DNA from: Bacteroidota bacterium
Lineage (GTDB): Bacteria; Bacteroidota; Bacteroidia; 2-12-FULL-35-15
NCBI GenBank assembly: GCA_947504725.1
Contig: CANNHN010000004.1
Coordinates: forward strand, 62,001-126,000
Reading direction: 5' to 3'
DNA length: 64,000 nucleotides
The translations under genes and the position numbers were made by a program. This document shows, piece after piece, positions 14,111-23,985 of the stretch (within the stretch, counting starts at the first letter, position 1; each line of letters begins with the position of its first letter). The notes under the pieces were generated by a model. That model was not told where the DNA came from, ran no database searches, and was given only the letters and a program-made list of their open reading frames with translations.

Positions 14111-14800
14111 CTACATAATATTTAACCGTTTATAAACTTCACTTTTATATGTTTTACCAATAGGTACAAGCTTTTCTCCAAAAGCGATAGTATCATCTTC
14201 AATGTCCTCAATTGCATCAAAACGAATAATATAAGACCGGTGAACCCTAATATAGTCAGGGTCTTTAAATCTATTTTCCATTTCCTTCATTGTCGAATGA
14301 ACAATATATTTTTTCCCATTACAATAAAGCGTTACATAATCGCCAATGCACTCAATAAGTTTTATTTCCTTTAGTAGGATTTTGACAATAGTTTTTCCAT
14401 CTTTTACGAAAACTATATTATCATTAAATTTAATTGTACTTTCTGTTGATGTTTTGTTTAAAACCTTTTTAACGGCAAGTGAAAAGTTTTCAAAATTGAT
14501 CGGTTTAACTAAATACCCTGAAACATTATATTTGAATGCTTCAATAGCGAAATCTTTGTGTGAGGTTGTAAGTATAACCTTAGGTAGTTTTTCAGCAAAG
14601 TAAGTGATGAATTCTATTCCTGTCATTTGAGGCATTTCAACGTCAAGAAATATCAAATCAATTTTATTCAATTTCAGAAATGAAATAGCCTCTGTTGCGT
14701 TTTCGAAGGAGTTTATTAGAGCTAGTCCCGGAAATTTTGCAATCAATTGTTGCAGAATATCCCTGGCCATTTTCTCATCATCTATAATTATACATTTCAT
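14111..14800 (-). CDS. LytTR-family response regulator
   Basis: A 229-residue two-component regulator: receiver domain 1-120 with phosphoacceptor Asp53 (IFLDVEMPQMTG), acidic pair DDE near residue 7-9, and Lys in LVKPINFE; then a LytTR DNA-binding domain (about 125-229) with KEIKLIECIGDYVTLY, STMKEMENRF, and YIRVHRSYII, the family signature. It begins four bases after the hybrid kinase stop, so the three genes H-NOX, kinase and regulator form one operon. LytTR regulators usually bind imperfect direct repeats upstream of target genes. Function follows from context: output of a nitric-oxide signal. Confidence 0.93.
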   Translation of the reverse strand: MKCIIIDDEKMARDILQQLIAKFPGLALINSFENATEAISFLKLNKIDLIFLDVEMPQMTGIEFITYFAEKLPKVILTTSHKDFAIEAFKYNVSGYLVKPINFENFSLAVKKVLNKTSTESTIKFNDNIVFVKDGKTIVKILLKEIKLIECIGDYVTLYCNGKKYIVHSTMKEMENRFKDPDYIRVHRSYIIRFDAIEDIEDDTIAFGEKLVPIGKTYKSEVYKRLNIM

Positions 14801-14804
14801 ATTT

Positions 14805-17207
14805 TTATTTTTTTAATTCTGTTTTCAATTCGGAATAGGCCAACTCACAGCTAAATTCAAGTTCAGTAACCATTTCTGGTAATAAATTTAAATGTTGCTT
14901 TTTTAGGCAATTTGATTCTATTTCCGTAACTTTTTTAATAAATAGTGGAGTGCCTATAAATGAGATTCGCCCTTTTAATTTGTGAGCAGATTCACTCATT
15001 TTTGGCCAGTCACCTTTATGCATTTCACGTTTTAGTTGACTTATAATTTCTGGAGTCTGTATCAGGAACTCTTCAATTAATTTTTCGAAAAAAGGTGTAT
15101 CGCCTGAGGCAACAGATTTAAGATAGGCCAAATCAATTACAGACACTCTTTCTGCATTGTTCTTAACTAATAAATCTTTAATTTTCTCTAATAATTCATT
15201 TTCTTGGAAAGGTTTGCTTAAGTATGCGTTCATTCCGATTTCAATGCATTTTTCTTTTTCTCCATTTAAAATATTTGCTGTCACTGCAATTATTGGCGTT
15301 TTTGAATTCGTACCTAATTTATTTTTTCTGATTGCCTCTGTTGTTTTATATCCATCTAAAATAGGCATTTGTAGATCCATTAGAATTAGGTCGTAGGAAT
15401 TTGTTTTTAATTTTTCAAGTGCAATTTTACCATTATCAGCTGTTTCAGTTTGGGCGCCATATTTCTCAAGCATTGAATTAGTGATCATTTGATTGAATTT
15501 GTCGTCTTCAACAACAAGTATCTTCTTTGATTTTAAGTCTACAGGAGTTGATTTTGAAATCTGGATTGCTGGTTTTTCGATATGTTCAATTATTTCGTAA
15601 GGAATAGTTACGAAAAATGTTGTCCCCAAACCTTCCTTACTCTTTACCTTTATTGTCCCTTTCTGAAGCTCAACCAAGTTTTTTACAATGGTTAATCCCA
15701 ATCCGGTTCCTGCTGAAAAATTACTAGTTTCTGAATTAACCTGAGAATATCTGTTGAAGATATTTGTTAGATTTTCTTCGGAAATTCCAATTCCGGTATC
15801 TTTAATTTCGATATTAATAAATTTTATCATCCCACTATTTTCCTCCATTGTTATCTTTATATCTATGTTGCCAGATTCGGTAAATTTTATTGCGTTATTT
15901 ACTAAGTTGAAAAGGATTTGCTTCAATCTGAAAGGATCTCCCGCAACATGATGTGTTTTTAAGAAATCATCTGTTCTTAAATTAAGTTTAAGATTTTTGT
16001 TTTCAGCCAAGTATTTCATTGAGTTGTAAACTTCATTTACAACTTTAAAAATGTCAAAAGGTAAAATTTGAAATTTAATTTTTTTTGCCTGAATTTTTTC
16101 GAAATCGAGAATGTCATTTACGAGATAGAGCAGATTTTCTGACGCAGTTTTAATAATCCCTAAGTATTCATTTTGTTTCCCTGATAAGTTTGTTTCAGCC
16201 AATAATCCTGTGATACCGGTTATAATATTTATTGGATTTCGTAATTCATGGCTCATATTCGCTAAGAACTGTTCTTTAGTTTTTTTAGAAATGATTGCTT
16301 CTTCTTTTGCATTTATTAGCTCAATTTCATTTTTCTTTCTTTGTGTAATATTTCTGTAAATCCATAAATGCCCATTATATTCATTGTCGGAAAAAATTGG
16401 AACAAAATCGCGTTCTAAGAAATCTCCATTTGCCAATTCTAATTCTTCATTCAAGACAAGGTCCTTGTTTGTCAGCGTTTTTTCTAATTGTTTTACAAAT
16501 AAATTAGGATTTTTAAAGTTATGTTTTGATTCCTCTGCAGATTTCTTGCAATCATAACCGATTAGTTGTTCTGGCTTCACTGGAATGTTCAATAATTCAC
16601 AAAATATTTTATTTGTTAATACAATTTTTCGTTCTTTATTTTCAAGCAAAATTCCACTTTGCATGTTTTGAATGAGTGCTGAAAATCTTTTATTGCTATA
16701 CTTTAATTCATATTCGGATTTTTCAATTTCTAATTTCTGTTTTTTGAGATTCTCAACAAGAGATAAAATGTCTTTCGACATGATTTCTTTATTGTTGATT
16801 AGCTGAATCATATCTGTAGTAGAGTCGTGAATTGCAAAATCTGGAATTGTGAGATTGAATTTAAGCAAGTCTTCAGGAGTGGTAATCCATGGACTACCTA
16901 TAAATATGATGTTATCGTTGCTTGATTTCAATATTTGGCCTCTGAATAGTATATCAGGGACTTTTTTTGAAATTAAAATTATTACTTGGTTACAATATTC
17001 TTGTATTGAATTAAATGTATAGGATACACTGAACGGTCTCTTAAACTCAAATTCATTTTTGAAATCGGAATTGACAATATTCGGAATAAGTTTTAAAATG
17101 CTATTTCCTGCAGAAACAATTTTCAGAGAATTATTAATTGCGAAATAAAATGGAAATAGTAGTGTTATTTCCGAATTATTAAAGGATATTTTATTTTGTT
17201 CACTCAT
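14805..17207 (-). CDS. H-NOX-associated hybrid histidine kinase (HNOBA, PAS, HisKA, HATPase, REC, Hpt)
   Basis: An 800-residue cytoplasmic kinase without membrane helices. Residues 1-140 form a heme-NO-binding-associated (HNOBA) domain: ITLLFPFYFAINNSLKI, ILFRGQILKS, and LTIPDFAIHDSTTDMIQL are typical. A coiled coil (150-175) leads to a PAS domain (about 175-295, SGILLENKERKIVLTN, ERDFVPIFSD). The HisKA His is about 320 (NMSHELRNPIN); the ATPase shows NLVNNAIKFT, DTGIGI and SAGTGLGLTIVKN. A receiver follows with Asp611 (LMDLQMP), then an Hpt domain with His742 (AHKLKG). This gives a full H-D-H relay to a final Asp, presumably that of the LytTR regulator. It starts three bases after the H-NOX stop, indicating that it is the H-NOX partner. 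Confidence 0.94.
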   Translation of the reverse strand: MSEQNKISFNNSEITLLFPFYFAINNSLKIVSAGNSILKLIPNIVNSDFKNEFEFKRPFSVSYTFNSIQEYCNQVIILISKKVPDILFRGQILKSSNDNIIFIGSPWITTPEDLLKFNLTIPDFAIHDSTTDMIQLINNKEIMSKDILSLVENLKKQKLEIEKSEYELKYSNKRFSALIQNMQSGILLENKERKIVLTNKIFCELLNIPVKPEQLIGYDCKKSAEESKHNFKNPNLFVKQLEKTLTNKDLVLNEELELANGDFLERDFVPIFSDNEYNGHLWIYRNITQRKKNEIELINAKEEAIISKKTKEQFLANMSHELRNPINIITGITGLLAETNLSGKQNEYLGIIKTASENLLYLVNDILDFEKIQAKKIKFQILPFDIFKVVNEVYNSMKYLAENKNLKLNLRTDDFLKTHHVAGDPFRLKQILFNLVNNAIKFTESGNIDIKITMEENSGMIKFINIEIKDTGIGISEENLTNIFNRYSQVNSETSNFSAGTGLGLTIVKNLVELQKGTIKVKSKEGLGTTFFVTIPYEIIEHIEKPAIQISKSTPVDLKSKKILVVEDDKFNQMITNSMLEKYGAQTETADNGKIALEKLKTNSYDLILMDLQMPILDGYKTTEAIRKNKLGTNSKTPIIAVTANILNGEKEKCIEIGMNAYLSKPFQENELLEKIKDLLVKNNAERVSVIDLAYLKSVASGDTPFFEKLIEEFLIQTPEIISQLKREMHKGDWPKMSESAHKLKGRISFIGTPLFIKKVTEIESNCLKKQHLNLLPEMVTELEFSCELAYSELKTELKK

Positions 17208-17210
17208 AAT

Positions 17211-17756
17211 TTAGGACCAACTAACCCGAAAGATGTCATTATATGCTCCGTCCGTTTTCAAAGCTTTTACTTCAATCTTTGTTTCTACTTTATACATTTT
17301 TCCTAATCCTTGAAGTAAGCCATACATAAAATAGTGAAGGCCATTTCTTGTAGAAAAATAGTGCACATCCAAAGAGTTTTCTTCAATATTACTGATTTTG
17401 AATTCTGGTGGTGTAAGGTTTGGATATATGAGCATTACACGGCTATGGAAGTTCGGAAGATTTATAAGGAAAGATTTTAAATTTTCACCACCAGCTTTCA
17501 TTAATGCACCATAACTTTCTTGTCCTGTTTTTAAAACCCAGTACTCGCCAAATGAAATTAAAACATCTTTCAGTTCTATTTTTAAGATTTCAGATGCTGC
17601 AATGGCTAAATCAAAAGTTGTTTGATCTGGGTAAGGTTCGTTGCTGAGAAATCCATCAACTGAAACACCACTTTGTTTTTTTATTTTTTCCCAGGAATCC
17701 AATCCAAAATTTTCGATTACTAATCCCTGGATTGCTTTATTTACTATTCCGTACAT
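17211..17756 (-). CDS. H-NOX (heme nitric oxide-binding) sensor protein
   Basis: A 181-residue standalone H-NOX protein that binds ferrous heme and senses NO. It starts MYGIVNKAIQ, as the family does. The heme-ligand histidine is His104 (PNFHSRV) and the propionate-binding Y-x-S-x-R motif is Tyr133-Ser135-Arg137 (HYFSTR). PYPDQTTFDLAIAASEIL covers the distal helices. In known systems, ferrous-NO H-NOX inhibits an associated histidine kinase. Here the kinase gene follows three bases later and carries an HNOBA domain, so direct interaction is likely. Whether it can also bind oxygen depends on a distal tyrosine that I cannot place confidently. First gene of the operon. Confidence 0.95.
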   Translation of the reverse strand: MYGIVNKAIQGLVIENFGLDSWEKIKKQSGVSVDGFLSNEPYPDQTTFDLAIAASEILKIELKDVLISFGEYWVLKTGQESYGALMKAGGENLKSFLINLPNFHSRVMLIYPNLTPPEFKISNIEENSLDVHYFSTRNGLHYFMYGLLQGLGKMYKVETKIEVKALKTDGAYNDIFRVSWS

Positions 17757-17905
17757 ATATTTAATATTTTTATTTATACTGAGTTATACGATTATTTAAT
17801 TAAAAGGTTCTTACTATTTTCGTCCTAAGATAATTTAATTTTTTGAGCTTCCATTTGTGAGTTTAGTTCAAATATCATCTATTATCAATATGTCGATTTC
17901 CGTTC

Positions 17906-17932
17906 TTCGATAAATTCGCCTCCTTTATCGAA
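17906..17932. promoter_or_regulatory. Perfect 9+9 inverted repeat, candidate operator
   Basis: TTCGATAAA (17906-17914), nine-base spacer, TTTATCGAA (17924-17932). The arms are about 1.7 helical turns apart, centre to centre, suiting a dimeric regulator. It lies 150 bases upstream of the H-NOX start. No T run follows, so it is not a terminator. Which protein binds is unknown. Confidence 0.45.
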
Positions 17933-18432
17933 AATATTACAATTTCTAAGTATTAGACGTTTAAGAATATATAAACAACGGTTTTGTATTCATTCTCAAA
18001 GTGTTGTACCATGAAAAATTCTTTAAAAGCTCTAAAAGTATTAATGGAAAGGTTTAGTTTCTTATCCTCTAGTTCAGTTCAAGCAGAAGATATAGGTATT
18101 GCTGAAGGTACTGTGCAAACTTATAAATGGTTGAAAGACTTTGGGGCATTAAAGGATATAGTATTTTCATTGATTATTTCCTCTGTTTTTTGTTCGTTTT
18201 TATACCTTGCTATAAATTCCTGATTTTTTCTACACCAGATTGGTCAATCCGTATTTCCTTCCTATCCTTACTACACCTCTTCAAGCAAACTCTGCCTTAT
18301 TTATTATTGTTTTTGCGATTTAAATTTCCTTCAATCGAACCTTTTCCACTCTTGGTTTACATTGTTTGGCTGGCTATACAACTTAATATTCGACATTTCC
18401 ATTCTCCGTCCAAAAAGCGCCATTCTTCGAAA

Positions 18433-18510: not shown

Positions 18511-21500
18511 ATGAAAAAAAATCTACAAATTCAGAAACTTTGTAATTCAATTTTAAAATTATTGGATTTCGGTTCAAATGTGAATGTTAATTCACCAGAA
18601 GAAATGAAAAATAAAAATAAAAAAATCGAAATACATTATTTACGAAAAGTCTGGTTTGCCGCTCTGCGTCTTTCCTTAATTTTTATTTTCTCTGGAAATT
18701 TCAAAGCAACCGCACAAAATACTTGTGCGGCACCGCAGGTTATAGCCGCTTTGCCTTACACGCTGGCCTCAGGTACTACATGTGGAACAGTTAATAATTA
18801 CACCACAACAATTGGAGGGAGTACATCGTATCTTTCCGGTGAGGACAGAATCTTTAGATTTGTACCTTCTACATCCGGAAGTATTACAATTTCTGTGACT
18901 CAACCTACCGGTGCATACTTAGGAATGTATTTGTACACAGGTTGCCCCTTCACTGCTTACATAGGAGGAGTTCAAAATAACACGGCTACAAAGAGTTTTA
19001 CTGCAACAGTTACTGCAGGAGCAACATATTTTCTAATGTTGGATACTTGGGCAGCACCTTCGTGTACTGCTTTTACAAATTTGACTATTACGGCACCAGC
19101 AGCAGCTTACAACCCTTGTACAACTATCCCTACATTAACTTGCGGTGCTGCTGCTACTACCTATAGTATGGCTGCATCTGCAGGGGCTTGGAATACTTAT
19201 GGTGGTACATTTAGTGTACCAGGTCAGGAAAAATTATTTCAGTTCACCCCTACAGTTACTGGTTCTTATGCCGTAACAATGTCGGTATCAACTGGCTATA
19301 ACGACTTTTTCTGGAAAGCTGCATCCGTTGGATGTAATTCAACTAGTTGGACGTATGTTAACGATATCTTTGGTACAGGAGAAACCTGGAATGTTAATTT
19401 AACTGCGGGTGTAGCATATTATTTTATGATGGATGATGAAGATATTTCAGCAAATACTGGAACAATAAGAGTTGCTTGTATATCAGCAGCTCCTGGGAAT
19501 GACTTAGTAGCCAATGCTCCACTCATTTCGTGTGGTTCAAATACAGCTGGAACAACTATTGGAGCAACATTGTCGGGGACCTATGAGGGCTTAACTTGTG
19601 GAACTGCACAAACTCAGCCTGGAGTATGGTATAAGGTTAATGGCGATGGATCCACTATGACAGCTTCCTTATGTGCAACTGCATGGGATAGTAAAATAAA
19701 TGTTTATCAAGGAGCAACTTCGTCATCTTTAGTTTGTGTTGGTGGAATAGATGATGACGGCCCAGCTTGCCTTAGTTCATCCGCATCTTACTCATGGGCT
19801 TCTGTTTCGGGTCAAATTTATTGGATATGCGTTAGTGGTTTTAATTCAAATGCTGCTTTTAATATTGCATTAACGTGTGTTGCACCAGCTTGTGCAGGAT
19901 CACCAAGTGCTCTTGCTTCTTCTGCAGTTTCAGCTTCAGCCGCAACAATTTCTTGGACAGCAGGTTCTCCTGCTCCGGCTAGCGGTTATCAGTATTATTT
20001 GTCAACATCAGCTACTGCGCCAATTTCAACAACTGTCCCTACCGGAAGTGTTAGTGCTGGAGTTCTATCAGCAAGCCTAACAGGTCTATTAGCAAATACA
20101 ACCTATTATTTTTGGGTTCGATCAAATTGCGGTGCCTCACAACTAGGTTGGATAGGTTCAGGATCGTTTTTAACTTTATGTAATTCATCAACTGTAAGTA
20201 CAAGTGCTTTTGTAACTGAAACCATGAATACTACCTCGTCTTCCATTGGATGTTGGCGTTTGCAAGGTTCCGGCATTAGTCTGGAAACTGCTGGAACGTT
20301 TCCAACTTGCGCCACTCAAGAAGGGGATAGAATGATACAATTTAATTCATATAATTTATCGGCAGGTACAACTGCTAGATTGTTTTCTATGCCATTGAAT
20401 ACAATTGGAACAACAGGATTAGCAGTAGATTTTTATTGGTTAAATGAGAATAGTCCTTTATATACGATGACAACCGAAGGTGTTCAAGTTCAATATTCAT
20501 TAGATGGTGGAACAACGTGGACAAATAGTGGAAGTTTTTTTCCTAGACAAGATGCAACCCTTGCTTCTGGAGCAATTCAATGGAATTTGAAAACTGTTGA
20601 AATAGGAAGTGCTGCAGTTGGTGCGAATGTTTTGGTAGGATTTTTATTTACCTCTCAATATGGAGATAATTGTTTCTTGGATAATTTAAAAATACGACAA
20701 GCGAAACCTATTATTTCAAGCTTTTCACCAACTTCAATTTGCTCTGGTTCAACAATTACAATAAATGGTTCTCACTTCCTAAATACTACAGCTGTTCAGT
20801 TCAATGGAATAAATGCTGCAAGCTTTTCAATTGTTAGCTCTACACAATTAACAGCAGTTGTGCCTTCAGGTAGCGCTTCCGGAACAATATCGGTAACTAC
20901 ATTAACCGGTGGCACAGGAACAAGTACCACTTCTCTTACTGTGAATCCGCTTCCAATAATTAGTTGCCCTTCAAACATTATTGTTAGTGCAACAAGTGGT
21001 TCATGCAGCGCGATTGTAACTTATAGCGCAAGTTCATCAACAATACCTTTACCAACAATAACTTATTCTCAAGCATCTGGGTCTTCTTTTAATATCGGAA
21101 CTACTATCGTAACAGCAACTGCAACAACTAGTGGTGGTTGTACTACTTCATGTACATTTTCTGTAACTGTGAATTCATCTGGAACAAGTAATTGGTTAGG
21201 AAGTATTAGTACTGATTGGTTTAACTCAGGCAACTGGTGTGGAGGAATTCCTACTTCAACTTCAGATGTGGTTATTTCTACAGGCGCTTCTTATATGCCA
21301 ATCATTTCGAGTGCAGGAGCAATTGCAAAAAACATTACAATCAACTCTGGCGCTAGCTTAACCATGAACGGAAATGGATATTTAACAGTTGTTGGTAATT
21401 GGATAAATAATGGAACATTTGTAGCCACCGGAGGCGATGTGAATTTTAATGGGAGTTCTTCGCAAACGATTGCGGGGGTGACAACTTTCTTTAACCTAAA

Positions 21501-23985
21501 TTTAAATAATCCAAGTGGACTAACAATAAATTCAAATGTAAATGTAAATGGGGGGTGCCAATTGGTTTCAGGAATCCTTACCACTGGTTCAAATGTTTTA
21601 CAGATAACAAACGGTGCCTCCCTTTCATATTTTGCAGGTTATGTAAATGGGTATTTAAAGAAATATGTTGATGCACTTAACCCATTTGTAATTTTTGAGA
21701 TTGGAAATTTAAGTGGATTTACTCCCGCTAATATTTATTTCAATAGTGTTATAACTGATGGATATTTAACTGTAAATACAATTTCGAATGATCATCCTTC
21801 TATTGCTTCATCTGGGTTAGATTCAACGAAGACAATAAACCGCTATTGGAATTTGGTGGGCAGCGGATTAACATTTGATTATTATAGTTTGGATTTGGAA
21901 TTTGTTAATTCTGATAAAGATCTTGGATTTAATGAAGTTTATGCCGGTGCTAAAGTATTTTCTGGATCTTCATGGGTAAATACTGATCAAGGATCTTACA
22001 ACAATAATATTTTATCAGTAGAAAATATTTCAACCTTTGGCGCTGTTCAAATTGGAATTTTCAATCCAACTCCGTTAGCAATTTCTCTTTCTCCTAATTA
22101 TGGATATATTGGATTAACATCAACTGTTGTTTTTAGTGGAAGAGGATTTATCAGCGGAGCAACCAGTGTAAATTCTGTTGCAGGTGTAACTATAAATTCA
22201 ACAACAATTAATAATGACAGCACTTTGACACTTAATGTTTCTGTCAGTTCAACAGCTATAGCAGGAATAAGAAAATTTGCTATTACTAACGTTGTAAATG
22301 CCCCGGGATTAGGTGGCACAAGTTATGATTCTTTATCATTTGAAATTAGAAATCCGCCAGTTGCCAGTTTTTTTCCAAGTGCTACAACGCTAATTTGCAA
22401 TGTGAGTGGAAGTATAATGTTTCATAATTATTCAACTGGTGGCGTTTCTTATTTATGGAATTTTGGCGCTGGAGCTTCCCCTGCAACTTCAACTAGCTCG
22501 GGATCTCAAACAGTAAGCTATTCTACAACAGGGACAAAAATAATTAAATTACTTGTTTTTAGTCCAGCAGGTAATGATTCAATTATAAAAAGTATTGTAG
22601 TTACTGCAAATCCACCTTCTAAACCAGCGTCTATAAGTGGGCCCTTAAATTTGACTTGTACTTCATCCATTGTAACAGGTGTTTATACTGCACCACTACT
22701 AACGGATGTGTCTTATAATTGGACAGTTCCTTCTGGAGCAACAATAACAAGTGGTTTAGGAACAAGAACAATTGTTGTTTCTTTTAGTGGAACATTTACA
22801 ACAGGTGTAATTTCATTAACTGAATCAAACGGCTGTGGAACGAGTTTAGCACGAACAATTACCGTTACAACAGCACCTCTTGCTCCATCTTTAATTTCAG
22901 GTAGTACAATTATTTGTGGGCTTACTTCCACAACATATACTGCTGCCGCTGTACCTGGTGCCACTTCCTATACATGGACATTGCCTGCAGGTGTTACATC
23001 AACAGTGGGTCTTTCACCAATAACAACAGTGGGGGCTTCTTTAACAGTAAATTTTGCTTCAACATTTAATAGTGGTTCAATTTCAGTAAGAGCTAACAAT
23101 TTATGTACAAGTGGATTTGCAAGAACACTGGCCATAAGCAGGGCTCCTGCAGCTCCTGCATCAATTTCGGGGACTACACTTATATGTGGTTTATCAAGCA
23201 CTACCTATACTGTTGCTGCAACAGTTGGAGCAACATCTTATACTTGGATTTTGCCAACTGGAATTACCTCAGCACTTGGAGCTTCTCCAATAACAACTGC
23301 TGGGACAACATTGACTGTGAATATATCCTCTGCTTTTTCCTCTGGATCAATTTCTGTAAAAGCAAATAATTCCTGTTCAAGTAGCGGTCTTAGATCATTG
23401 GCATTAAAATTAACACCGAACACTCCGGGAACAATATCAGGGCCAAGCAACATTTGCTCATTGACCTCGGCTACCTATAGTATTGCAGCTGTTGCTGGTT
23501 CAACTTCCTATACTTGGACTTTACCTTTAGGAGTTACAAGTACGCTTGGGTCATCACCTATTACTACTACTAGTACATCAATTTCAGTTTTAATTTCACC
23601 GGGAGTTGCGACAGGTAATATTACTGTTGTTTCAAATAACACATGTGGCGTTAGTGGAGTTAGATCCAAAGTTTTAGCAGGTTGTCATAGTTTTGTATCT
23701 GCAATTGCAGATTCTGTTTCTCAAATTCCATTTGAAATTAAAATTTATCCTAATCCAGCTATTGAAAAATTTAGTATCGAGTTTGTTTCAAACATTAATT
23801 CTGAAATAGTAATTGAAATATATGATATGAACGGAAATAGAATTACTGTCAGAAAAGAAATAGTAACTGAAGGCAATAATCTTTTAGAGTGCAATGTATC
23901 TGAATTTACAAAAGGAATTTATTTAATAAAGTTAGTGGATGAATTAAATCAAATGGTTGTTACAAAAAAATTGGTTGTTCAATAA
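18511..23985 (+). CDS. Giant T9SS-secreted multidomain adhesin-like protein
   Basis: 1,824 residues, secreted through Sec and then T9SS. The signal peptide lies at about residues 43-68 (LRLSLIFIFSGNFKATAQ) after a long polar N-terminus; an internal ATG at 18604 would give a normal-length signal peptide and may be the true start. In order: PPC-like beta domains (75-460), a fibronectin-III-like domain (465-555, TISWTAGSPAPASGYQYYL), a jelly-roll segment (560-730), an IPT/TIG domain (735-815), a HYR domain (815-895), more beta regions, a PKD-like domain (about 1290-1365), four Ig-like repeats (1368-1724), and a T9SS type-A sorting domain (KIYPNPAIEKF to the end, about 1744-1824). No catalytic motif is visible, so it is probably an adhesin or matrix protein. 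It is transcribed away from the NO-sensing operon. Confidence 0.88.
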   Translation: MKKNLQIQKLCNSILKLLDFGSNVNVNSPEEMKNKNKKIEIHYLRKVWFAALRLSLIFIFSGNFKATAQNTCAAPQVIAALPYTLASGTTCGTVNNYTTTIGGSTSYLSGEDRIFRFVPSTSGSITISVTQPTGAYLGMYLYTGCPFTAYIGGVQNNTATKSFTATVTAGATYFLMLDTWAAPSCTAFTNLTITAPAAAYNPCTTIPTLTCGAAATTYSMAASAGAWNTYGGTFSVPGQEKLFQFTPTVTGSYAVTMSVSTGYNDFFWKAASVGCNSTSWTYVNDIFGTGETWNVNLTAGVAYYFMMDDEDISANTGTIRVACISAAPGNDLVANAPLISCGSNTAGTTIGATLSGTYEGLTCGTAQTQPGVWYKVNGDGSTMTASLCATAWDSKINVYQGATSSSLVCVGGIDDDGPACLSSSASYSWASVSGQIYWICVSGFNSNAAFNIALTCVAPACAGSPSALASSAVSASAATISWTAGSPAPASGYQYYLSTSATAPISTTVPTGSVSAGVLSASLTGLLANTTYYFWVRSNCGASQLGWIGSGSFLTLCNSSTVSTSAFVTETMNTTSSSIGCWRLQGSGISLETAGTFPTCATQEGDRMIQFNSYNLSAGTTARLFSMPLNTIGTTGLAVDFYWLNENSPLYTMTTEGVQVQYSLDGGTTWTNSGSFFPRQDATLASGAIQWNLKTVEIGSAAVGANVLVGFLFTSQYGDNCFLDNLKIRQAKPIISSFSPTSICSGSTITINGSHFLNTTAVQFNGINAASFSIVSSTQLTAVVPSGSASGTISVTTLTGGTGTSTTSLTVNPLPIISCPSNIIVSATSGSCSAIVTYSASSSTIPLPTITYSQASGSSFNIGTTIVTATATTSGGCTTSCTFSVTVNSSGTSNWLGSISTDWFNSGNWCGGIPTSTSDVVISTGASYMPIISSAGAIAKNITINSGASLTMNGNGYLTVVGNWINNGTFVATGGDVNFNGSSSQTIAGVTTFFNLNLNNPSGLTINSNVNVNGGCQLVSGILTTGSNVLQITNGASLSYFAGYVNGYLKKYVDALNPFVIFEIGNLSGFTPANIYFNSVITDGYLTVNTISNDHPSIASSGLDSTKTINRYWNLVGSGLTFDYYSLDLEFVNSDKDLGFNEVYAGAKVFSGSSWVNTDQGSYNNNILSVENISTFGAVQIGIFNPTPLAISLSPNYGYIGLTSTVVFSGRGFISGATSVNSVAGVTINSTTINNDSTLTLNVSVSSTAIAGIRKFAITNVVNAPGLGGTSYDSLSFEIRNPPVASFFPSATTLICNVSGSIMFHNYSTGGVSYLWNFGAGASPATSTSSGSQTVSYSTTGTKIIKLLVFSPAGNDSIIKSIVVTANPPSKPASISGPLNLTCTSSIVTGVYTAPLLTDVSYNWTVPSGATITSGLGTRTIVVSFSGTFTTGVISLTESNGCGTSLARTITVTTAPLAPSLISGSTIICGLTSTTYTAAAVPGATSYTWTLPAGVTSTVGLSPITTVGASLTVNFASTFNSGSISVRANNLCTSGFARTLAISRAPAAPASISGTTLICGLSSTTYTVAATVGATSYTWILPTGITSALGASPITTAGTTLTVNISSAFSSGSISVKANNSCSSSGLRSLALKLTPNTPGTISGPSNICSLTSATYSIAAVAGSTSYTWTLPLGVTSTLGSSPITTTSTSISVLISPGVATGNITVVSNNTCGVSGVRSKVLAGCHSFVSAIADSVSQIPFEIKIYPNPAIEKFSIEFVSNINSEIVIEIYDMNGNRITVRKEIVTEGNNLLECNVSEFTKGIYLIKLVDELNQMVVTKKLVVQ
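22612..23682 (+). repeat. Four tandem Ig-like repeats inside the giant protein
   Basis: Repeats begin near 22612, 22873, 23143 and 23413. The last three are exactly 270 bases (90 residues) apart; the first is 87 residues and more diverged. Each contains a Cys after ISG, then SYTWTLP, SPITT, and a final ANN-x-C stretch. Unit identity falls with distance, suggesting successive duplication. Long conserved blocks at the DNA level could permit recombination and change of copy number. Confidence 0.85.

Follow-up and report, generated by a model that had tools for sequence, protein, structure and literature searches.

A three-gene operon of H-NOX sensor, HNOBA hybrid kinase and LytTR regulator in a Bacteroidota genome: a predicted route from nitric oxide to gene expression

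Results

The operon and its parts

We analysed a 64,000-nucleotide stretch of a Bacteroidota genome (assembly GCA_947504725.1, contig CANNHN010000004.1, positions 62,001 to 126,000; hereafter the window) in which an H-NOX heme sensor, a hybrid histidine kinase and a LytTR response regulator are encoded by three consecutive genes (Table 1). A first-pass annotation made from the letters of the window had placed the three genes at 14111..17756 with gaps of 3-4 bases, and the list of open reading frames (ORFs) agrees exactly: all are on the minus strand, with 3 bases between the H-NOX and kinase genes and 4 between the kinase and regulator genes. The same annotation had named a heme sensor with His104 and Y-x-S-x-R, a kinase with HNOBA, HisKA, receiver and Hpt domains, and a LytTR regulator. 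Both residue features are present and every one of these domains scores above its Pfam cut-off. The three-gene operon is therefore real and its parts are well identified.

Table 1. Features of the operon, with positions counted in the window
Feature	Position	Strand	Size and residues	Basis
H-NOX (HNOB) heme sensor	17211..17756	-	181 amino acids; His104, YxSxR, Trp73, Phe143	Pfam; best PDB match Nostoc Alr2278
Hybrid histidine kinase, HNOBA-(coil)-PAS-HisKA-HATPase-REC-Hpt	14805..17207	-	800 amino acids; His320, Asp611, His742	Pfam; residues
HNOBA PAS domain and 46-residue helix (residues 129-174), predicted H-NOX docking/relay part	16683..17207	-		Profile match; AlphaFold; Foldseek
REC-LytTR response regulator	14111..14800	-	229 amino acids; Asp53	Pfam Response_reg and LytTR above cut-off
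Leader upstream of the operon, presumed promoter	17757..18126	-	370 bases up to the next listed ORF	

The sensor covers the whole of the Pfam HNOB profile (1-163 of 163) at 154.5 bits against a cut-off of 25.5, and its heme residues are the proximal His104 and Tyr133-x-Ser135-x-Arg137. A search of the PDB matched 25 distinct sequences, the best being the Nostoc H-NOX Alr2278 (E 3.9e-45). Named records with similar H-NOX proteins bear Bacteroidota names in 56/58 cases, the other two being a Leptospiraceae metagenome-assembled genome and an 'uncultured bacterium'. We aligned 134 H-NOX sequences from the gathered loci, near-duplicates included; 85 of them have an HNOBA protein next to them, and the other 49 lack such a neighbour. 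His104 is conserved in 134/134. The HNOBA-linked sequences carry Trp73 in 84/85 and Phe or Met at position 143 in 84/85, with Tyr at neither position. Among the 49 sequences without that link, position 73 is gapped in 42. From this alignment the 85 HNOBA-linked proteins look like a distinct type of H-NOX.

Within the kinase the Pfam scores are 86.7 bits for HNOBA (two stretches, cut-off 23.4), 67 for HisKA, 96.9 for HATPase_c, 101.1 for Response_reg and 32.9 for Hpt (cut-off 24.6), all above cut-off. A second PAS region at about residues 171-300, which the first-pass annotation did not name, falls below its cut-off (19.9 vs 22.6). The catalytic residues comprise His320 (in HELRNP), an N box from 434, G boxes from 470 and 500, the receiver Asp611 and the Hpt His742. 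The regulator scores 75.2 bits for Response_reg and 60.1 bits for LytTR, and its receiver Asp53 is present. A full His-Asp-His-Asp residue set is thus encoded within one operon.

The genome has seven LytTR matches in 3.4 Mb. Of the other six genes, four lie beside PF06580 kinases, one lies beside a HisKA_2 kinase and the sixth has no assigned partner. The kinase type of the operon differs from the partners found for the other LytTR genes of the genome, which we count in favour of the mechanism proposed below.

The HNOBA domain and its relation to guanylate cyclase

A profile of the HNOBA domain was built from 51 of the 84 available N-terminal regions, and all of the aligned relatives (51/51) match HNOBA at E <= 0.001. 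It matches the beta-1 (E 5.1e-24) and alpha-1 subunits of soluble guanylate cyclase (sGC) as well as the PAS domain of a Nostoc punctiforme histidine kinase (PDB 2p04, E 1.2e-23). AlphaFold predicts a PAS fold followed by a 46-residue helix (mean pLDDT 89.2, pTM 0.69), and the best Foldseek matches of the predicted structure are sGC subunits, followed by 2p08 and 2p04. By homology, then, an H-NOX/HNOBA pairing that is single-chain in sGC is here divided between two proteins, as it is in cyanobacteria. sGC shares with the operon an H-NOX, an HNOBA PAS domain and a signalling helix, and a similar D-x-x-x-H-D-x-T-x-D lies at the start of the helix. In the operon, however, separate proteins carry these domains, and a histidine kinase relay takes the place of the cyclase as output.

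As a marker of H-NOX dependence we tried the strict HD-x-T-x-D motif in HNOBA, which occurs in 13/86 H-NOX-adjacent and 1/10 orphan HNOBA proteins and is useless as stated. Position 122 is Ala, Pro or Ser in 84/84 H-NOX-adjacent proteins and in 7/10 orphans, a weak difference.

Comparison with characterised H-NOX circuits

The first-pass annotation contrasted the LytTR end point with known H-NOX circuits, said mostly to end in EAL or HD-GYP output. This contrast holds in part: no report of a LytTR output for H-NOX or for nitric oxide (NO) was found in the accessible portions of the open-licence literature. Those portions do already describe transcription-factor ends (HnoC, LuxU/LuxO and SypG). 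According to the available text of PMC8738867, H-NOX may act on kinases whose regulators affect transcription, HnoC in Shewanella being such a factor. A Vibrio H-NOX circuit ends in a transcription factor via LuxU/LuxO in the excerpts of PMC6769237, where the LytTR mention concerns AgrA, and in those of PMC12369376 V. fischeri HnoX inhibits HahK, which feeds SypG via SypF and LuxU. In the available parts of PMC8396549, PMC5395568 and PMC8776716, LytTR or H-NOX appears only in lists, tables or references. Lastly, as far as cyclic di-GMP signalling is concerned, the accessible text of a review of how it senses (PMC8846402) associates HNOB and HNOBA with GGDEF proteins only.

HNOBA-type histidine kinases are already known, and the Nostoc example has a solved PAS domain. 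What is new here is the LytTR end point of H-NOX-kinase signalling and its spread in the class. Nostoc supplies both the best solved H-NOX match, Alr2278, and the solved bacterial HNOBA PAS match, the N. punctiforme kinase (PDB 2p04/2p08); the two genes are presumably neighbours there. Unlike the whole operon here, these PDB entries are single domains, and the comparison is one of sensor and PAS domain, not of output regulator.

In Shewanella oneidensis, HnoX and HnoK with HnoB, HnoC and HnoD resemble the operon in that an H-NOX lies beside a kinase feeding response regulators, of which HnoC is a transcription factor, as far as the accessible portion of the source extends (PMC8738867). However, no LytTR is known from that circuit and no GGDEF or EAL was found in the present genome. 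The Shewanella circuit has EAL and HD-GYP regulators. The accessible accounts of the Vibrio circuits (H-NOX/HqsK-LuxU-LuxO, and HnoX/HahK-SypF/LuxU-SypG in V. fischeri, where SypG controls a polysaccharide locus) share with the operon NO, an H-NOX, a hybrid kinase, an Hpt and a transcription factor, whereas the Hpt is there on another protein (LuxU or SypF) and the factor belongs to another family. Moreover, the Vibrio H-NOX partner kinase is not known to be of the HNOBA type. LytTR regulators paired with PF06580 kinases belong to the same DNA-binding family, but the LytTR of the operon has as its partner a hybrid kinase of the HisKA type that includes a receiver and an Hpt.

H-NOX loci across the class

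Among 58 loci of named records chosen by their H-NOX, an HNOBA protein is adjacent in 55, and the three misses are at contig ends. The adjacency of H-NOX and HNOBA is not due to chance. A LytTR regulator lies within the listed genes in four of these loci (L034, L043, L049 and L053). For a less biased sample we drew 395 genomes evenly from across the class (Bacteroidia). H-NOX matches occur in 72/395, 71 with a match above cut-off, and 74 H-NOX loci were fetched from 70 genomes, leaving out G265 (broken frame), G090 (below cut-off) and the fragment G246:C18. For the survey labels (LytTR, REC, Hpt, HNOBA, sigma-54, export and NO-synthase) we used our own profiles instead of Pfam, each grown from one protein of the window or of a locus, and these may cast too wide or too narrow a net; in some loci the flanks are truncated by a contig end.

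Within five genes of H-NOX, a LytTR regulator is found in 17/74 loci and a sigma-54 activator in 14/74, never both; a four-gene limit gives 14/74 for each. An HNOBA protein is detected by its own profile in 6 of the 17 LytTR loci. The 74 stretches hold 19 LytTR genes, all at offsets of -2 to +5 from H-NOX and 16 of them downstream on the same strand. In the first count, 15/539 genes within four genes of H-NOX were LytTR against 4/402 further off (p 0.06); the limit was widened from four to five genes after the four 'far' LytTR genes were seen at +5 on the same strand. The expected number of LytTR genes per 9-kb median stretch is about 0.02, as derived from the seven per 3.4 Mb of one genome. 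The LytTR arrangement recurs in the class. Distant loci retain LytTR in changed gene orders, upstream in L043 and divergent in L094.

Possession of an Hpt goes together with a transcription factor. Of the 62 kinase-bearing loci, those with LytTR or sigma-54 have an Hpt in 29/30 cases versus 6/32 without (Fisher p 1e-10, uncorrected for kinship), and for LytTR alone the figures are 16/17 versus 19/45. The Hpt is either fused to the kinase, as in the window, or encoded by a small gene of its own that sits between those for kinase and LytTR (L169, L170 and L173), that of L169 being found by its own profile and not by Pfam. From these gene neighbourhoods, H-NOX in the class looks to be wired to transcription via Hpt relays in which the regulator is exchangeable.

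The LytTR label was mapped on a quick tree of 77 H-NOX proteins that omits L135 (same stretch as L032) and L182 (<130 amino acids, its match interrupted by a stop). Labelling followed the four-gene limit here, and L131, L167 and L175 thus count as lacking LytTR. The label lies on both main branches (HNOBA-linked and other) and requires 12 changes or more, of which well-supported branches force 7. It is more clustered than chance (3/500 shuffles as low), and gain and loss are indistinguishable. The window H-NOX groups with that of G025 (support 99) and then with G040 (90), both of which have LytTR. A tree of the LytTR proteins was built to see whether those beside H-NOX kinases form one clade. 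The genome paralogs L190, L192 and L195 fall outside and L191 and L194 inside with weak support, a pattern that does not discriminate between one origin and several. The change count of this tree is inflated, since L193, placed among the paralogs, is in fact the gene of the window itself.

Cyclic di-GMP domains and genes of NO metabolism

Profile searches found neither GGDEF (0) nor EAL (0) in this genome, and none in the operon. Across the class, GGDEF is found in 9/395 genomes (6 above cut-off) and EAL in 1/395, with searches that gave matches in 8 and 6, respectively, of 14 known genomes used as controls. Two of the nine GGDEF genomes (G218 and G352) have H-NOX, as has the sole EAL genome (G135), and in all three the GGDEF or EAL matches lie away from H-NOX, either on a different contig or at a great distance along the same one. 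HD-GYP was absent from the operon by Pfam, the rest of the genome not having been searched for it. The lack of GGDEF and EAL in the genome would explain an end point other than the usual one, and transcription probably replaces cyclic di-GMP as the output here.

NO synthase is found in 11/395 class genomes, four of which have H-NOX. Two genomes of the same genus, G316 (L151:12365-16399) and G409 (L157:12349-16401), carry a globin/NO-synthase/flavodoxin/FAD protein about 300 bases downstream of an operon of H-NOX, PAS-kinase-REC-Hpt and LytTR; NO_synthase scores 475.9 bits in L151, and the L157 copy is at G409:C23. Judged by gene content, such cells could make and sense their own NO.

A sigma-54 regulator lies near H-NOX and a kinase in L123, L126, L140, L144, L160 and L164. 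Moreover, polysaccharide-export or Wzc-like profiles match in 6/74 H-NOX loci, confirmed by Pfam in L123 only, which is reminiscent of the V. fischeri control of syp by HahK-SypG. We had considered that relatives carry NO-detoxification genes beside the operon; this was rejected, since the 245- and 777-amino-acid neighbours in L123, which had prompted the idea, are polysaccharide-export and chain-length proteins (Pfam, one locus).

For Bacteroidia as a whole we tentatively suggest, while holding it slightly more doubtful than not, a form of H-NOX signalling that does without cyclic di-GMP and whose Hpt relay carries the NO signal to an exchangeable transcription factor. This would be LytTR in some lineages; others would use a sigma-54 activator, in places with polysaccharide-export genes alongside, and one genus would close the loop with an adjacent NO synthase.

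Discussion

A proposed mechanism

We hypothesise, with fair though not strong confidence, that the operon converts NO into a change of gene expression via H-NOX, the HNOBA kinase and the LytTR regulator. The ferrous H-NOX, which resembles Nostoc Alr2278, would hold its heme on His104 and, as the aligned site has no distal tyrosine, would take NO in preference to O2. NO-bound H-NOX would then dock on the HNOBA PAS domain and the 46-residue helix behind it, mirroring the contacts that these domains make inside sGC, as their homology and fold suggest. By analogy with characterised H-NOX/kinase pairs, contact would alter autophosphorylation of His320, most likely lowering it. The sign of this effect is the least certain step, because NO activates guanylate cyclase. 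Phosphate would pass from His320 to Asp611, His742 and Asp53, a path predicted from the residues present, and the phosphorylated LytTR protein would bind promoters. The description of the locus as a complete NO-sensing operon holds for the His-Asp-His-Asp residues, which are all there; NO sensing itself is a prediction, and 3/5 orthologous kinase-LytTR pairs lack an adjacent H-NOX.

Several observations weigh against this mechanism. No match to nirK, RIC (ytfE) or NO synthase was found in the genome (nirS and norB not having been searched), so that it offers no obvious source or target of NO. A scan of the upstream 370 bases of six loci for a LytTR binding motif (10-base repeats at 20-23 spacing with <=1 mismatch and >=3 G or C in the six aligned upstream regions) found no direct repeat, and therefore we propose no regulon. 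An independent-pairs test of Hpt against transcription factor on the tree, with the four-gene labels, gave 3.1 pairs in the same direction and 0.1 in the opposite (median p 0.25), too few pairs and not significant. The remaining such observations concern kinases without H-NOX.

Kinase and LytTR pairs without H-NOX

In 36 genomes of the genus, this kinase is found over its full length in the window genome and in G025, G031, G006 and G007 (58-62% identity). The conservation of the three-gene order, a point raised in the first-pass annotation, is partial: a LytTR gene sits at the kinase end in 5/5, and LytTR recurs in the class as described above, while H-NOX adjoins the kinase in 2/5 only (the window and G025). 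There is no H-NOX match in the genomes of G031 (90% complete) and G006 (92% complete), and tblastn of H-NOX against these loci gave nothing convincing. G007 has the same flanking DUF2304 gene (by eye) and no H-NOX there, its H-NOX being elsewhere with its own HNOBA protein. Moreover, G004 (99% complete) has two HNOBA-kinase/LytTR loci and no H-NOX match in the genome, and 8/14 HNOBA loci fetched from relatives lack an adjacent H-NOX. Gene content in these genomes shows that a predicted kinase and LytTR pair can exist without H-NOX, and since H-NOX is missing beside so many orthologous or related HNOBA kinases, the kinase can answer to something else.

The alternative to which these loci lend themselves is that kinase and LytTR form the real unit, answering mainly to ligand or redox via the PAS domains of the kinase, with H-NOX an optional, lineage-specific add-on that trims the response. 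Besides the 5/5 and 2/5 counts and the pairs of G006, G031 and G004, it draws on the second PAS region of the kinase, which at 62-69% identity among the window, G025 and the G031/G006 pair is about as conserved as the HATPase (59-72%). Against it, an HNOBA protein accompanies H-NOX in 55/58 loci, and the absence of H-NOX goes with lower conservation of HNOBA and coil. The window and G025, which has H-NOX, share 59% identity in HNOBA, 71% in the coil and 59% in the HATPase; with G031 the window shares 46%, 39% and 72%, and over G031 and G006, which have no H-NOX, 44-46%, 39-48% and 72%. In addition, 12 coil residues are absent in G031 and G006. Such divergence is what one would expect if both parts contact H-NOX and drift without it, and points to H-NOX as the chief reason for retaining HNOBA and coil, although the pattern comes from one pair of sister genomes and hence one lineage. 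On balance we regard the add-on alternative as unlikely, while taking it seriously.

The two G004 loci (L095 and L096) each have an HNOBA kinase divergent from a LytTR regulator, and this genome, which has no H-NOX match, has a NO synthase. A different module of the same genus is found in L103 (G025:C43) and L102 (G007:C6), where another H-NOX is accompanied by a 530-amino-acid HNOBA-HATPase protein and two stand-alone receivers.

The ligand and the target of the relay

That H-NOX reports O2 or redox state rather than NO is improbable. Tyr142 lies one residue from position 143, which corresponds in alignment to the O2-stabilising distal tyrosine in the Thermoanaerobacter protein, and the three NO-related families searched (nirK, RIC and NO synthase) gave no match in the genome. 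However, the window has Phe143, aligned with a methionine of Alr2278; position 143 is Phe, Met or Val in 85/85 HNOBA-linked sequences, and Tyr142, present in the window, occurs in 6/85 only. Because no tyrosine occupies the 143 site, NO rather than O2 is the predicted ligand, with the caveat of the adjacent Tyr142.

Least probable is that the Hpt phosphorylates another regulator elsewhere, such as a stand-alone receiver, and that the adjacent LytTR serves a different kinase. In its favour, many of the class's H-NOX loci carry stand-alone receivers, and several receivers can share one Hpt domain. Against it, only 4 bases separate kinase and LytTR, the two stay together in all five orthologs, and in more distant loci they do so even where LytTR lies upstream (L043) or is divergent (L094); all 19 LytTR genes of the 74 stretches are confined to offsets -2 to +5 from H-NOX.

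Neighbouring gene

Divergent from the operon, at 18511-23985 of the window, lies a gene for a repeat-rich, apparently secreted protein of 1824 amino acids, whose C-terminal end resembles, by eye, a type IX secretion sorting domain.

Implications

In the accessible literature, the characterised bacterial H-NOX circuits are those of Proteobacteria, told mostly in terms of cyclic di-GMP and biofilms. Given that H-NOX is found in 72/395 class genomes, GGDEF in 9 and EAL in 1, the sensor should act by another route in most of the class. The operon is a compact three-protein system of which every relay step is open to reconstitution, and the orthologs without H-NOX provide a natural control for the role of HNOBA.

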